DNA of 47,698 nt, taken from assembly GCA_016782225.1 (NCBI GenBank), contig JADDOW010000100.1, positions 1 through 47,698 of the forward strand, in the 5' to 3' direction. Shown piece after piece: positions 18,700-25,356 of the stretch. Below the pieces are notes generated by a model that worked only from the letters and a program-made list of their open reading frames with translations, was not told where the DNA came from and made no database searches. The translations under genes were made by a program, and so were the position numbers. The first letter of the stretch is position 1. Each line of letters starts with the position of its first letter. The DNA comes from Nitrososphaeraceae archaeon (GTDB lineage: Archaea; Thermoproteota; Nitrososphaeria; Nitrososphaerales; Nitrososphaeraceae).

Positions 18700-19314
18700 A
18701 TGGAAAAAAGCGGTCAATTCTATTATGATGTTAATAATGCTATATCCGTGATAAACGCCCAAATTTCGCATTTAAAATCAATAGATACGAAGTTTTCTGC
18801 AATGGATACTAATTTTAGTTCAAAAATTGCCCAGAATATAAAATTAGGAAATAATGCCCGAGCAAATGTAATAGCAAATGAGTTGTCTGCCATGAGAAGA
18901 TTAAGAAAAAACACACAAAATGTCAGTTTAGCATTGGAAGTCGTTGCTATACGATTTTCAACTATAACTGAATTTTCAATGATGATGGATACAATTAATC
19001 CCACCGTAGAGATGTTAATGGATATCCAAAAGGATCTTTCAAAAGCTGTCCCATCTGCCACTGAAGTTATATCTCAAGTTCATACCTTATCCAGTGACGT
19101 ATTAATTAATTCCAGCATTAATACTGATGTAGGCAAAATTGGTGCTGTAATCGATCAGGATGCGTTATCTATATTGAGTGATGTGCAAAATAGCCTTGAG
19201 GATGAAGCAAAAGAAAAATTACCTGAGGTGCCGGAATCTATAATTTCTAAACGATCTCATATTAATTTAAAAGATGATATCATAAACAGCGGGCAAGTTT
19301 TACTAGAAAATTAG
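18700..19314 (+). CDS. CdvB-type ESCRT-III (Snf7) family protein
   Basis: ESCRT-III proteins polymerise on membranes and drive division in Cdv-type archaea. The 204-residue protein is almost entirely helical: the basic helices 1-2 (residues 10-75, with SAMRRLRKNTQ), the long helix 3-4 region to about 165, and an acidic tail. LPEVP at 174-178 resembles a type-2 MIT-interacting motif, through which Vps4/CdvC is recruited. No winged-helix extension is present, so this is the shorter paralogue type rather than the CdvA-binding CdvB. CdvA and CdvC are not in the window; in related genomes several such paralogues are scattered. Confidence 0.82.
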   Translation: MEKSGQFYYDVNNAISVINAQISHLKSIDTKFSAMDTNFSSKIAQNIKLGNNARANVIANELSAMRRLRKNTQNVSLALEVVAIRFSTITEFSMMMDTINPTVEMLMDIQKDLSKAVPSATEVISQVHTLSSDVLINSSINTDVGKIGAVIDQDALSILSDVQNSLEDEAKEKLPEVPESIISKRSHINLKDDIINSGQVLLEN

Positions 19315-19364
19315 GATTGCACTGTTCTAGTAATTTCTAATGTATTTTTTTTATCAGTTTTATT

Positions 19365-19370
19365 TATATA
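19365..19370 (+). promoter_or_regulatory. TATA box of the RNR-like regulator gene
   Basis: TATATA lies 31 nt before the TTG at 19396. This spacing supports the upstream TTG start (leaderless) over the in-frame ATG at 19441. Confidence 0.4.
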
Positions 19371-19395
19371 TCAATACTTGAACTGCATCTTATAA

Positions 19396-21456
19396 TTGAG
19401 GATTACGTATCTGCCCACGTCGGAAACTAAACGAGGTATTATGGAATCTACCTCTAAAAGAGTAAGAATGATTTTTTCAGTAATGGCAAGTCCTAATAGG
19501 ATTGATATCTTACGTATTCTGAATTCCAAAGGGCCTTTAACTTATTCCGAATTAAAATCATTAGCAGGGTTCCGATCTAAAAAGGAGTCTGGGAAATTTG
19601 CTTATCATTTAAGAAAGTTGTTAAGACAGTCATTAATAGGCCTAAATAAGGCAGAAAGACGATATGCTATTACTAATTTAGGGAAATTGGTATTGAATTT
19701 AGCACGACAAATAGAAGAAAAATCCATTATTGAAAGCGGGAAAATGTATGTAAGAACCAGTAACCAAAACATTGAGGAGTTCAATCCTCATAAAATAATA
19801 CAATGCTTGGTAAGGGAAGCAAATATGTCATTGGAACAATCTACAAAAATTACAGAAGAAGTTGAAAATAAGATATATAAGACTCCAACCTCTTATTTGA
19901 CGTCTAGCCTAATACGAAACTGTGTTAACAATGTGTTATTAGAGCATGGTTTGGAGGAGCAAATGAATAAACTGATTCGAATTGGTATTCCTATCTATGA
20001 TTTAAATAAAAAGCTAAATAATAACACTGGAGTACTAAACAATGGCATTAATGATGTAATTATTGACATTTCAAAAAGTGTTTTTTCTGATTATTTGAGA
20101 AATACTTTTCCTAAAGATGTGTTGGATATGCATTTTAATGGTGAAATTCATCTAGATGATTTGGGAAATTGGGGAATATGCCCAGATACTATTTTTATTG
20201 ATATTGAAAACATACTGGAAAAAAGCATTCATCTAAACGTGCAGTTTCCTTATTTACCTCATATCTCGAAACCAGATGATGTAGATATAGTTTTACCTCT
20301 TTTAGTTTCTATTTTTCAAAAGGAGGTTTCAAAAGAAATAGTGATTGAAAACATTTTAAAATTATTTGATGGTATTTCTTCAAACAATGATATTCCTTTA
20401 ACTTTTGCAAATTCTTTGTTAAAGTCTTCTTTTTCTATTCACTCAATTAATTCTCCATTTATTACAATTGTTTTACCTCTAAAAGATAATGATGAAGTTT
20501 TGTTAAATATCTTACATGGATACCTGATGTATTTGGAGAAGGTTTCCATTTTAAAATTTGGAATACTTGTTTCATTTTCAAATCATCTTCCTAATAAAGT
20601 TGTAGAGATGATAGCTAAAATTACAAGGCTTGGTGGAAAGATTTCCTTATCACAGACATCTATTCGAAGTAGTAAGGGAGTTTTTAAGATGAATAACAGT
20701 ACTAATTTGCCTGTGATATCATTACATTCTCTTTCGCTAAACCTCCCCCATTTGGCCTATCAATCAAATAAAGATGAAACTTATTTTAGGACAAAGTTGG
20801 CATTATTGTTAAAACCCTCGTTAGATGCCATGGTGTCAAAAAAAGACATGATCTTTGATAACGTTAGGAGGGGTTTACTGCCTGCCATATCCAATTCACT
20901 TGTGTTCCCACAATCAGGCTCCACTAACATACTCATCAATTTAACCGGTTTAAATGAATCTATTTTCAATATATTGGGATATTCAGATAACCATGAGGAA
21001 GGCATTGAAATAGTTAAGAAAGTTGTCAAAACTGCTAATGATGTTATTTCCAATTTTGATAAAAAAAATTATGATCATTTTGGAATTTCAATAATTGACG
21101 ATAATAGCCCTAATCGCTTTCTTCAACTAGATTCTGAAAAGTTTGGTAGGATGTCCCATACTTTTGGTTCATATTCTCAGGGTCTAACCATTACCAAAAA
21201 TGATCTTAAAGTAAACTCTATATCTCGAAACTTACTTTTTTTAGGGGGTTTGTTGACTGGTGGTTTTTCTGTCAAATTGGATACTACCGCACTGTCTTTG
21301 ATTGATGCAATTGACTTATTGTCCAAATCTGTAGATTTTATTCCCTATTTTGATATAATTGATAAGCAGGTTGTCTGTGGTGTTTGTAGTTCCCGAGTTT
21401 TGGATAACAGCATATGCTCTGTATGTAAGTCTAACAATCCACCAACTTTAACCTAA
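19396..21456 (+). CDS. Winged-helix + ATP-cone + inactive NrdD-like fusion protein
   Basis: Three parts are visible. Residues 22-105 are an ArsR-like winged helix (SPNRIDILRILNSKGPLTYSEL... KFAYHLRKLLRQSLI). Residues 116-205 are an ATP-cone (MYVRTSNQNIEEFNPHKIIQCLVREANM), the dATP/ATP sensor of ribonucleotide reductases and NrdR. The rest resembles the anaerobic class III reductase NrdD: IYDLNKKL, FNGEIHLDDLGNW, ISLHSLSLNLPHLAY (compare VTINLPRIAY) and a C-terminal zinc site with Cys661, 664, 674 and 677. Between Cys262 and Cys661 there is no cysteine, so the thiyl-radical residue is missing. The chain ends nine residues after the last zinc cysteine, just where the RxxGY glycyl-radical loop would begin. 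An active enzyme is therefore unlikely; a nucleotide-sensing regulator of the downstream reductase is inferred. Confidence 0.72.
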   Translation: MRITYLPTSETKRGIMESTSKRVRMIFSVMASPNRIDILRILNSKGPLTYSELKSLAGFRSKKESGKFAYHLRKLLRQSLIGLNKAERRYAITNLGKLVLNLARQIEEKSIIESGKMYVRTSNQNIEEFNPHKIIQCLVREANMSLEQSTKITEEVENKIYKTPTSYLTSSLIRNCVNNVLLEHGLEEQMNKLIRIGIPIYDLNKKLNNNTGVLNNGINDVIIDISKSVFSDYLRNTFPKDVLDMHFNGEIHLDDLGNWGICPDTIFIDIENILEKSIHLNVQFPYLPHISKPDDVDIVLPLLVSIFQKEVSKEIVIENILKLFDGISSNNDIPLTFANSLLKSSFSIHSINSPFITIVLPLKDNDEVLLNILHGYLMYLEKVSILKFGILVSFSNHLPNKVVEMIAKITRLGGKISLSQTSIRSSKGVFKMNNSTNLPVISLHSLSLNLPHLAYQSNKDETYFRTKLALLLKPSLDAMVSKKDMIFDNVRRGLLPAISNSLVFPQSGSTNILINLTGLNESIFNILGYSDNHEEGIEIVKKVVKTANDVISNFDKKNYDHFGISIIDDNSPNRFLQLDSEKFGRMSHTFGSYSQGLTITKNDLKVNSISRNLLFLGGLLTGGFSVKLDTTALSLIDAIDLLSKSVDFIPYFDIIDKQVVCGVCSSRVLDNSICSVCKSNNPPTLT

Positions 21457-21477
21457 CTAAATATTGTAATGGAAATT

Positions 21478-21490
21478 TTCATTATATGAA
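21478..21490. promoter_or_regulatory. Inverted repeat TTCAT-N3-ATGAA, copy 1
   Basis: This perfect 5-bp inverted repeat with a 3-nt spacer (TAT) is a candidate operator for a dimeric winged-helix protein. The centre lies 65 bp from the second copy. Confidence 0.4.
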
Positions 21491-21542
21491 TTGATTAAAT
21501 ATTTTTATTAAACATTATGATTATTGTATTGTTATCTGAATT

Positions 21543-21555
21543 TTCATTATATGAA
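21543..21555. promoter_or_regulatory. Inverted repeat TTCAT-N3-ATGAA, copy 2
   Basis: It is identical to copy 1. It lies just upstream of the TATA-like stretch 21560-21570 and about 50 nt before the reductase start codon. Confidence 0.4.
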
Positions 21556-21604
21556 TTGATTAAATATTTTTATTAAGCGATATGATTATTGTATTGATAT
21601 CTGA

Positions 21605-24358
21605 ATGGCAGAAACTGATCTTCACAATTCAAAAAATGAGTCTATTTTACATATTAAAAAAAGAAATGGAGCAATAGTAAACTTTGAGCAGTCGAAAATA
21701 TCAAATGCAATATATAAAGCACTGGTTGCCGCTGGCAAACCTGACCATAATCTAGCTGAAGAGCTCGCAACAAAACTAGTCAATAAAATTGTTAAAAGCG
21801 GATATGTGGGATCTGCTAATAAAGATCATGCCTTAAGCGTTGAGGACGTTCAAGACATGGTTGAATCGATTTTGATAGAGGAAGGTTTGGCTGAAACTGC
21901 TAAAGCTTACATATTATACCGACATGAAAGGCGAAAGTTAAGGGAAATGAAAATGAAGATATTAAATAAAAGGGATCTTGATGAAGTAGATAAATCGTTA
22001 GATATCAATTCGCTTAGAGTCTTATCCTCACGTTATTTGCTTCGAGATAACAATAACGAAATTATCGAAGGGCCAAAACAACTTTTTGAGCGTGTTGCAA
22101 TCCTGGTTTCTATTCCAGATATAGTTAATGATGCTTCTATTTTTGATTTGAATGGTAGTTATAAACAACCTTTAAGTGAGGCAGAAAAATATTACGAGAA
22201 ACTGGATGATTTTGACTATAAACTTAAAATTGGGAGTTATTATTTAAACAAATTCCATTTTGAATCTCTGATTAGAACTTATGTTAATGAAGCAAAAATT
22301 GGTAGAATGAAAATAAGCTTTAAAGAGTTACTGCGAATGATAGCCGAAGGGAGATTGGCTAATTATGGCAATAAAATTTTTGAATATTATAATTTGATGG
22401 TTTCAGGGGAGTTTCTTCCAAATACGCCTACCCTTATGAACTCGGGAGCTAGATTGGGACAATTGTCTGCTTGTTTTGTTCTTGATATGCCTGATGATAT
22501 GTACTCCATAATGAAATCATCTACTGATGCTGCAATGATTTTTAAATCAGGTGGTGGCGTTGGAATCAATTATTCTACTTTAAGGCCCGAAGGTGATATT
22601 GTTGCTTCAACCAGTGGTGTTGCATCAGGACCTGCATCCTTTATGCAAATCATTGATACGGTAACTGATGTAGTCAAACAAGGTGGAAAAAGACGTGGCG
22701 CAAACATGGGTATTTTGGAAACTTGGCATCCGGATATTGAGAAATTCGTTACAATGAAGACCAAACCTGGATTATATGAGAACTTTAACGTTAGTGTTGG
22801 AGTTTGGTCTGATTTTTGGAAATCATTGGTAACTAAAGGAGATCACAAATATTCTTTAAGGAACCCTAGAACCAATGCACATGTAAAATATATTGATTCC
22901 CATCAATTAATGGAGTTGATTGCCTTAAGCGCATGGAAAAGCGCCGAACCAGGTGTTATATTCTTTGACAATATAAACAAATACAACCCATTGATAAAGT
23001 CCAAAGGTGGTCCTCTTAGGGCAACAAATCCATGTGGGGAGCAATCATTGTATCCATATGAGTCTTGCAATTTGGGATCCATTAATCTTTCAAAATTTGT
23101 AAAAAGGAAGGCAGATGGGATGTATGAATTTGACTGGCAGAGATATGAGCAATCTATTAGGGTAGCTACCAAGTTTTTGGACAATGTTATAGATGTCAAT
23201 AAATATCCAGTTGATGAGATTGATGTAAACACAAAATTAACTAGACGTATTGGGTTAGGCATTATGGGTATTGCTGATTTGCTTTTCCTGTTACATATCC
23301 CGTATAACTCCAAAGAGGGTTATGATTTTATGAGCAAACTTGCAGAAACACTATCATATTTTAGCATGGATGAAAGCATAGTTATCTCCAAATCTAGGGG
23401 CCCTTTTCCATTATTTGACGAAACGGATTACAAAAATGGGGTTATTCCTATATCTGGGTTCTATGAAATCCCTAAAGATCTGCACAGTTTTGATTGGGAT
23501 TCTCTAATAGAAAAAATTAAAAATCATGGTATTAGGAATTCTTGGACTACTACCATTGCACCTACAGGCACATTATCAATGATTGCAGACGTATCAAATG
23601 GTGTAGAGCCAGTCTTCGCTTTGGTGTTTGAAAAGCGCGTTACAGTGGGTAGATTCTTTTACACTAGTAAAATTTTTGAAAATGTATTAAAGGAACATGG
23701 GCTATACAATGATGAAATTTTGTTAAAGATTGCTAATAACTATGGTTCTGTACGCGGACTTGATGAAATCCCGGACTGGATACAAAATATTTTTGTTACT
23801 GCTATTGATGTCCACTGGACTGAGCATTTGATGGCTCAAGCGGTATGGCAAAAATGGATTGGCAATGCAATTGCTAAAACAATAAACATGCCTGCAGATG
23901 CCACAGTTGAAGATGTAAAGTGTGCATATTTACTTGCTCATGAATTTGGTTTAAAAGGGGTTACTATCTATAGAGATGGCTCAAGAAATGAACAAGTGTT
24001 GCATATTACTGGTAGTGAACGCGAGAAAAAATTTCTGGTCAAACCTAGTAAATTCTTATGCAATTATATTTTCAACAATATGCATGAGCCTTATGTTCTT
24101 GAACAAGTCACTCCCATTTTCAAAAACTATTTGGACAACAATGACGTTAAACATGACAATGATGGTCCTAATTCCAATAACGAGTTAGGACCATCAAATT
24201 TTGAAACTAACCACCGAAACACTCAATCTGACATATATGTTAATTTTGAACAGGAAAACAATAAAGTGTTATGCCCAACATGTAAAAACATTCTGATAAT
24301 CACGGAGGGATGTAATATGTGTATTGAGTGTGGATTTAGTAGTTGCGCTTCAGGGTAA
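21605..24358 (+). CDS. nrdJ: Adenosylcobalamin-dependent (class II) ribonucleotide reductase
   Basis: The enzyme reduces ribonucleotides to deoxyribonucleotides using B12. Residues 13-115 form an ATP-cone (IKKRNGAIVNFEQSKISNAIYKAL). The catalytic barrel has FLPNTPTLMNSG, LSACF (Cys290) and NPCGEQ-LYPYESCNLGSINL, with Cys477 and Glu479 of the radical site. PTGTLSMIADVSNGVEPVFA follows. The C-terminal tail has four cysteines in two C-x2-C pairs (CPTCKN and CIECGF) plus a terminal SSCASG, suited to re-reducing the active site. The length of 917 residues is normal for archaeal class II enzymes without inteins. Its promoter region is a tandem duplication, and the upstream gene is the dead NrdD-like fusion. 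Confidence 0.93.
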   Translation: MAETDLHNSKNESILHIKKRNGAIVNFEQSKISNAIYKALVAAGKPDHNLAEELATKLVNKIVKSGYVGSANKDHALSVEDVQDMVESILIEEGLAETAKAYILYRHERRKLREMKMKILNKRDLDEVDKSLDINSLRVLSSRYLLRDNNNEIIEGPKQLFERVAILVSIPDIVNDASIFDLNGSYKQPLSEAEKYYEKLDDFDYKLKIGSYYLNKFHFESLIRTYVNEAKIGRMKISFKELLRMIAEGRLANYGNKIFEYYNLMVSGEFLPNTPTLMNSGARLGQLSACFVLDMPDDMYSIMKSSTDAAMIFKSGGGVGINYSTLRPEGDIVASTSGVASGPASFMQIIDTVTDVVKQGGKRRGANMGILETWHPDIEKFVTMKTKPGLYENFNVSVGVWSDFWKSLVTKGDHKYSLRNPRTNAHVKYIDSHQLMELIALSAWKSAEPGVIFFDNINKYNPLIKSKGGPLRATNPCGEQSLYPYESCNLGSINLSKFVKRKADGMYEFDWQRYEQSIRVATKFLDNVIDVNKYPVDEIDVNTKLTRRIGLGIMGIADLLFLLHIPYNSKEGYDFMSKLAETLSYFSMDESIVISKSRGPFPLFDETDYKNGVIPISGFYEIPKDLHSFDWDSLIEKIKNHGIRNSWTTTIAPTGTLSMIADVSNGVEPVFALVFEKRVTVGRFFYTSKIFENVLKEHGLYNDEILLKIANNYGSVRGLDEIPDWIQNIFVTAIDVHWTEHLMAQAVWQKWIGNAIAKTINMPADATVEDVKCAYLLAHEFGLKGVTIYRDGSRNEQVLHITGSEREKKFLVKPSKFLCNYIFNNMHEPYVLEQVTPIFKNYLDNNDVKHDNDGPNSNNELGPSNFETNHRNTQSDIYVNFEQENNKVLCPTCKNILIITEGCNMCIECGFSSCASG

Positions 24359-24417: not shown

Positions 24418-25356
24418 ATGACTGATAATAAATTTTTTAAGCGGAGTATTGTTTCTATAAGGGATTTTACTGTTGATGATTTTACTTATCTCTTTGACCT
24501 TACTGATAGAATACAAACTTTAACAACCAATGAGCGGGGTGAGATTGCAAAAGGTCTAATACTTGGATACATTTTTTATGAATATAGCACAAGAACAAGA
24601 TTGAGTTTTGAATCTGCTATGGCATCTATCGGCGGAAGGTCATTAGGTATATCGGATATAGATTCTTCGTCTATTATGAAAGGCGAAAGTTATGCTGACA
24701 CCATAAAAACAATATCTTTGTATTCTGATGTTGTTTTAATACGCCACCCATCTGATGGTTCGAGCAGATATGCAAGTGAAATTTCAGACAAACCCGTAAT
24801 AAACGGTGGCAGTGGAAGCGAGGAGCATCCTACGCAAGCTATGTTGGATGTTTATACCATATTTAAAGAAAAAAAAAGAGTTGATGGTTTGTCTATTGGT
24901 ATCATTGGAGATTTAAAGTATGGTCGTACTGTGTATTCTCTAATATATGCATTATCTAACTATGATGTGAATATTCATCTAGTTTCCCCATCAATGTTAA
25001 GAATTAGAAATGAATCCATATATGATATTGCCAATAATGTGAAGATGTTTCATCACACCGAACTAACTGATGACTTGCTAAAAGAATTAGATGTTATGTA
25101 TGTTACTAGAATTCAGAGAGAACGATTTCCTGATTTGCAGGAATACAAAAAAATTCAGGGATTGTATACTATCGATGAGAATGTTTTGAAAAGGTCTAAA
25201 TCTGATGTTTCGATTTTACATCCCATGCCTAGAGTTGATGAAATATCGTCATCTATCGATAACACCAAAAATGCTGTATATTTCAAACAGGCTTCTTACG
25301 GTAAGGAACTGCGATCTGCTCTTTTGTCTGCATTACTTCATGAGAAGCCGTTTTGA
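24418..25356 (+). CDS. pyrB: Aspartate carbamoyltransferase catalytic subunit
   Basis: The enzyme makes carbamoyl-aspartate in pyrimidine synthesis. The carbamoyl-phosphate loop STRTRLSFESAM lies near residues 59-70. GSGSEEHPTQAMLDVYTI carries the HPTQ motif, and GDLKYGRTVYSL and ILHPMPRVDEI complete the active site. The length of 312 residues is standard. The regulatory subunit gene pyrI, often adjacent in archaea, is not beside it; the following 427 bases hold no plausible copy. The ATG follows the reductase gene after 59 nt. Confidence 0.94.
   Translation: MTDNKFFKRSIVSIRDFTVDDFTYLFDLTDRIQTLTTNERGEIAKGLILGYIFYEYSTRTRLSFESAMASIGGRSLGISDIDSSSIMKGESYADTIKTISLYSDVVLIRHPSDGSSRYASEISDKPVINGGSGSEEHPTQAMLDVYTIFKEKKRVDGLSIGIIGDLKYGRTVYSLIYALSNYDVNIHLVSPSMLRIRNESIYDIANNVKMFHHTELTDDLLKELDVMYVTRIQRERFPDLQEYKKIQGLYTIDENVLKRSKSDVSILHPMPRVDEISSSIDNTKNAVYFKQASYGKELRSALLSALLHEKPF

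Follow-up and report, generated by a model that had tools for sequence, protein, structure and literature searches.

Ribonucleotide reductase regulators and class III reductases

Among the closest described systems is NrdR, the bacterial repressor of ribonucleotide reductase (RNR) genes. Like the candidate regulator described here, NrdR combines an ATP-cone with a DNA-binding domain and is linked to RNR genes. The two differ in build: NrdR has an N-terminal zinc ribbon and ca. 150 amino acids, whereas the present protein has a winged helix and a whole, apparently dead barrel of the class III reductase NrdD, amounting to ca. 690 amino acids. The NrdR model did not match the protein in an NCBIfam scan, and homology outside the cone is not expected. 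With NrdD, the family is homologous end to end over the cone, the barrel and the four-cysteine zinc site. However, C175, C384 and the glycyl-radical loop of NrdD are all gone, the winged helix is additional, and the protein scored 51 bits against a cut-off of 326 bits with the NrdD equivalog model. By Pfam, its DNA-binding head belongs to the ArsR-type winged-helix regulators (HTH_20, HTH_5, DUF7347), although it did not reach the threshold of NF033788, the model for ArsR/SmtB metalloregulators (21 versus 55 bits). Unlike in those regulators, the sensing part is a relic of an RNR. No published description of this HTH–cone–dead NrdD architecture was found in the literature searched, whose coverage excluded most subscription journals.

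Gene and domain architecture

The window, i.e., the whole stretch of DNA that was analysed (47,698 nucleotides of a Nitrososphaeraceae genome), contains the gene and its elements as follows.

19357–19371, + strand: putative TATA-like element of the regulator gene, TTTTATTTATATA, ca. 30 nt upstream of the TTG
19396–21456, + strand: whole gene (winged helix, ATP-cone, dead NrdD barrel, zinc site), 686 amino acids, TTG start, open reading frame intact
19471–19695, + strand: winged helix, residues 26–100 (Pfam PF12840/PF24038, conservation)
19744–19965, + strand: ATP-cone, residues 117–190 (Pfam PF03477, alignment)
20053–21360, + strand: NrdD-derived barrel, approximately residues 220–655 (hmmsearch of the PDB; hhalign to true archaeal NrdD)
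20188–20190, + strand: codon of T265, which aligns with a catalytic cysteine of NrdD (C175 in E. coli, C79 in T4)
20680–20682, + strand: codon of V429, which aligns with the thiyl-radical cysteine of NrdD (C384 in E. coli, C290 in T4)
21376–21426, + strand: zinc site formed by four cysteines (C661, C664, C674, C677), with 9 residues left in the chain, which stops ahead of the glycyl-radical loop

An earlier note on this DNA, made from the letters alone, had described a single protein joining a winged helix, an ATP-cone and an NrdD-like barrel. Pfam recovered all three, each above its curated cut-off: HTH_20/DUF7347 at residues 26–100 (31.2 bits against 27 and 39.7 bits against 27.6, respectively), the ATP-cone at 117–190 (PF03477, E 6e-11, 43.2 bits against 25.8) and NRDD at 434–681 (E 3e-16). 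The complete list of cysteines (137, 176, 262, 661, 664, 674 and 677) shows that the note was exact in placing none between residues 262 and 661. It was equally correct that the chain stops just past the zinc site without a glycyl-radical loop, the end lying 9 residues after C677. AlphaFold models of the protein were of low confidence, with mean pLDDT values of 37.2 (single sequence) and 35.9 (with four close homologues), both below 40.

The TTG start is credible because both the N-terminus (YLP.SE.KRG) and the TATA-like TTTTATTTATATA are conserved within the genus, the latter in all eight sequences compared. The distance between this putative promoter element and the TTG is consistent with a leaderless mRNA. 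An ATG at 19441 was set aside as the start, since the longer N-terminus and the TATA spacing are common to the relatives.

Descent from NrdD and loss of catalysis

A profile of 23 homologues matched solved class III reductases over positions 404–694 in an hmmsearch of the PDB (best E 5e-11). In an hhalign comparison, the family profile was paired with the true archaeal NrdD of L121, which belongs to a different genome of the phylum; the alignment spans 571 columns and reaches from the cone as far as the zinc site (99.7% probability, E 1.4e-25). Furthermore, homologues from other classes covered the Pfam NRDD model almost completely (L142: positions 12–562 of 562, E 7e-75). These profile matches indicate that the protein is, by descent, an NrdD, and they support an NrdD-type barrel.

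The protein was aligned with NrdD of E. coli and with six from archaea, which placed their two catalytic cysteines at T265 and V429. Among 94 Nitrososphaeria homologues, the C175 position was occupied by T, V, I, A or S and the C384 position by I, V or L (rarely M, F or S), with a cysteine in none of them at either site. The pairing at C384 was read via the intermediates GCRS / GCRF / GVFK, and the direct HMM alignment from the PDB search was shifted there by a few residues; either way, the position is without cysteine. The four zinc cysteines were retained in 93 of the 94 homologues, and in the same number the chain ended no more than 15 residues past the last of them, the exception being L038, which has no zinc site. 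The L038 homologue stops before that site, and both a real truncation and a frameshift are possible. The glycyl-radical loop was missing from the 94 homologues. The NrdD ancestry and the loss of catalysis proposed in the earlier note were thus upheld by profile homology and by the cysteine positions, and an intact glycyl-radical domain, which the note had named as evidence against its reading, is not present near the gene. Judged on its sequence, the protein appears to be catalytically dead as a reductase, and it can be taken as close to certain that a class III reductase, now dead, was joined to a DNA-binding head in its evolution.

The retained barrel and zinc site could also be understood if the protein were still an enzyme, whether an unusual reductase that works without a glycyl radical or one that converts nucleotides in another way. 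In favour of this reading, other glycyl radical enzymes include aminoacyl radical enzymes whose radical position is occupied by Ala, Ser or Thr (PMC11528403). However, both catalytic cysteines are missing in 94/94 class homologues and the radical loop is gone, NrdG is below the cut-off in the genome, and conservation of the barrel lags far behind that of the helix and the cone, making a surviving enzyme very improbable. The aminoacyl radical enzymes were rejected as an explanation, since they represent other subfamilies, for which NrdD served only as an outgroup (PMC11528403).

ATP-cone and conservation of the domains

The cone of the protein shares the V, E, F and K positions of the NrdR nucleotide site: V51, E59, F61 and K65 of E. 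coli NrdR align with V119, E127, F129 and K133. The position of NrdR K53 is taken by T121, beside the invariant R120. The matching residues of Streptomyces NrdR, V48, K50, E56 and K62, are important there for the binding of nucleotides and of DNA (PMC9110341, PMC12176259). The cone is probably functional, because true archaeal NrdDs of this lineage have the same VRTS or VRRTDG form in theirs. Nucleotide binding may nevertheless differ from that of NrdR, given the change of a phosphate-contacting Lys to Thr.

Across 53 dereplicated homologues, the mean pairwise identity decreased from 80% in the winged helix, which includes the basic segment SKKESGKFAYHLRKL, to 68% in the cone and 35%–39% in the barrel. 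Such a gradient would be expected of a DNA-binding nucleotide sensor, unlike an enzyme.

The survey of Nitrososphaeria suggested in the earlier note found the gene in 193 of 200 genomes, nearly always as a single copy, and in 57 of the 61 genomes of the family. While the loss of catalytic residues might suggest a decaying pseudogene, the chance of this is negligible and the idea is refuted by conservation: the open frame is intact, nearly all genomes of the class carry the gene, with rare exceptions in one copy only, and hardly any variation is seen in the winged helix.

In a model search of 120 genomes of the class, NrdR was above the cut-off in none and true NrdD in one; NrdG had no match above the cut-off in the genome of the window. 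The slot of an RNR regulator is therefore vacant in the class. The genome of the window also encodes a stand-alone ATP-cone protein of 136 amino acids with a weak NrdR match (L103:1486–1896, contig C8).

Linkage to nrdJ and other neighbours

The gene stands directly upstream of a class II reductase gene, as the earlier note had stated.

21605–24358, + strand: nrdJ, likely target gene; encodes a class II ribonucleotide reductase that has an ATP-cone of its own

The nrdJ product scored 730 bits against the NrdJ cut-off of 400 and was the sole match to the NrdJ model in this 99.8% complete genome. Synteny was the second part of the suggested survey: in 84 of 87 class loci, the regulator gene was followed directly by nrdJ in the same orientation, the 87 representing 81 genomes, six of which were counted twice. 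Of the other three loci, two are too short and L022 has no nrdJ within 1.5 kb. The pair persists in families whose NrdJ is only ca. 33% identical. In three loci of another family (L149, L150 and L154), nrdJ is adjacent but convergent, and no RNR gene was seen nearby in the deep-branching class loci L151 and L156.

Among 32 loci from other classes, true nrdD lay just downstream in five (in three with a glutaredoxin-like gene between) and nrdJ in one. The remaining 26 homologues had no adjoining RNR gene, and their commonest neighbours were pyrB, pyrI or NAC genes. A neighbouring RNR gene is thus firmly the norm in Nitrososphaeria, but is found in only a minority of loci elsewhere, so that the linkage expected in the earlier note held for the class and failed for most homologues beyond it.

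Other genes were recorded in the surroundings. A Snf7/ESCRT-III-like (CdvB-type) gene lies directly 5′ of the regulator gene in Nitrososphaeraceae (18700–19314 in the window), its Pfam match being just at the cut-off. The aspartate carbamoyltransferase gene pyrB follows nrdJ in the window (24418–25356). Across the phylum, pyrB and often pyrI recur near the HTH–cone–NrdD gene (L119, L120, L121, L125 and others).

Active homologues are often regulated by pseudoenzymes. The tight linkage to nrdJ, together with the ATP-cone that NrdJ itself carries, would accordingly also suit a protein that acts on the NrdJ protein as an allosteric partner or inhibitor, with the winged helix serving mainly for protein interaction or dimerisation. 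We consider this improbable. Within the protein, conservation peaks in the winged helix with its basic SKKESGKFAYHLRKL (80%), although the adjoining NrdJs diverge to ca. 33% identity; moreover, homologues adjoin class II enzymes, class III enzymes or neither, which fits control at the DNA better.

A further unlikely alternative, slightly more probable than the last, is a nucleotide sensor that binds DNA but mainly controls genes beyond nrdJ or in place of it, such as those of pyrimidine supply, DNA replication or cell division, the linkage to nrdJ being partly an inherited neighbourhood. The adjoining pyrB/pyrI of many other-class homologues, the pyrB after nrdJ in the window, the ESCRT-III-like Snf7 gene just 5′ in Nitrososphaeraceae, a dCTP deaminase-like gene that follows in L133 and the many other-class homologues without an adjoining RNR gene all favour this reading. 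However, pyrB is mostly convergent and therefore shares no promoter with the regulator gene, and some deeper families of the class have retained nrdJ amid altered thiolase/OB surroundings.

Search for an operator

The region upstream of nrdJ contains a duplication, which the earlier note had proposed as the binding target of the regulator.

21462–21591, + strand: direct repeat 5′ of nrdJ, made up of two 65-bp copies with 89% identity

This proposal did not survive comparison with relatives: the repeat is restricted to the genome of the window and its 98%-identical relative and is missing in the 90% and 79% relatives, i.e., it is local and unconserved even within the genus. Since near relatives are without it, the repeat was ruled out as a conserved operator.

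NrdR recognises paired palindromic boxes ahead of RNR genes in a manner that depends on ATP/dATP. For the present family, dyad counting and footprinting across the class yielded no operator conserved across families. In Nitrosopumilaceae, a palindrome (TATGAANTTCATA) lies ca. 117 bp 5′ of nrdJ, with exact copies in 12 of 41 sequences and none in shuffles. Its conservation is confined to this family, and it is missing upstream of the regulator gene. Moreover, in the Nitrosopumilaceae genus searched, several genomes (L158, L172 and L181) have the palindrome ca. 28 nt 3′ of their archaeal RNase P RNA. It is therefore not specific to nrdJ and was rejected as an operator.

Homologues in other classes and evolution of the family

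A search of the phylum found longer relatives, of up to ca. 780 amino acids, in other classes. C175 was missing in all 32 HTH-fused sequences compared from these classes, and C384 was kept in two (L121 and L146). A glycine near the radical position was kept in a few (such as L130, L132 and L148); in most, that position held Ala, Ser, Thr or nothing. In a maximum-likelihood tree, a supported branch (97/91) parted all HTH-fused proteins from true NrdD, and the Nitrososphaeria homologues were monophyletic (100/100). With true NrdD as the outgroup, here only seven sequences, some of them long-branched, the tree fits a single fusion followed by a putative stepwise loss.

Two arrangements outside the class deserve mention. 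In L121, L126 and L146, an HTH–cone–dead NrdD gene, a gene for a glutaredoxin-like protein and true nrdD follow one another in this order, so that dead and living copies stand in tandem. The shorter relatives in L135, L136, L137 and L144 (535–602 amino acids) keep the helix and the cone, their barrel is strongly eroded and they are without the zinc site; some adjoin NAC genes.

Proposed function and significance

We consider it likely that the protein is a transcription regulator derived from a dead class III reductase, which most probably adjusts nrdJ to dATP/ATP. An archaeal NrdD with an ATP-cone would have acquired an N-terminal winged helix, and the fusion would then have lost the catalytic cysteines and the glycyl-radical loop. 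The cone, barrel and zinc site were retained and would form the part that senses nucleotides and probably dimerises. In Nitrososphaeria, the regulator would bind DNA at the nrdJ locus and tune nrdJ transcription to the dATP/ATP level sensed through its cone, the role that NrdR has in bacteria. We infer the DNA binding, and regard nrdJ as the likely target and dATP/ATP as the likely signal; at high dATP, the protein would presumably repress rather than activate.

For the phylum as a whole, we see about an even chance that these proteins form one transcription factor family, descended once from a class III RNR, in which the enzyme relic (the cone and barrel, perhaps with the old specificity site) reads the DNA-precursor pool and a dead reductase controls a living one. 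In the literature searched, no description was found of DNA-precursor control in archaea without NrdR, and the present protein is an almost universal regulator candidate in Nitrososphaeria, the class of ammonia-oxidising archaea. Matches to NrdD models in Nitrososphaeria genomes are no evidence for anaerobic ribonucleotide reduction. Active NrdD, HTH fusions with broken catalysis and the truncated putative regulator would together make up an unusually complete record of the passage from an enzyme to a transcription factor.
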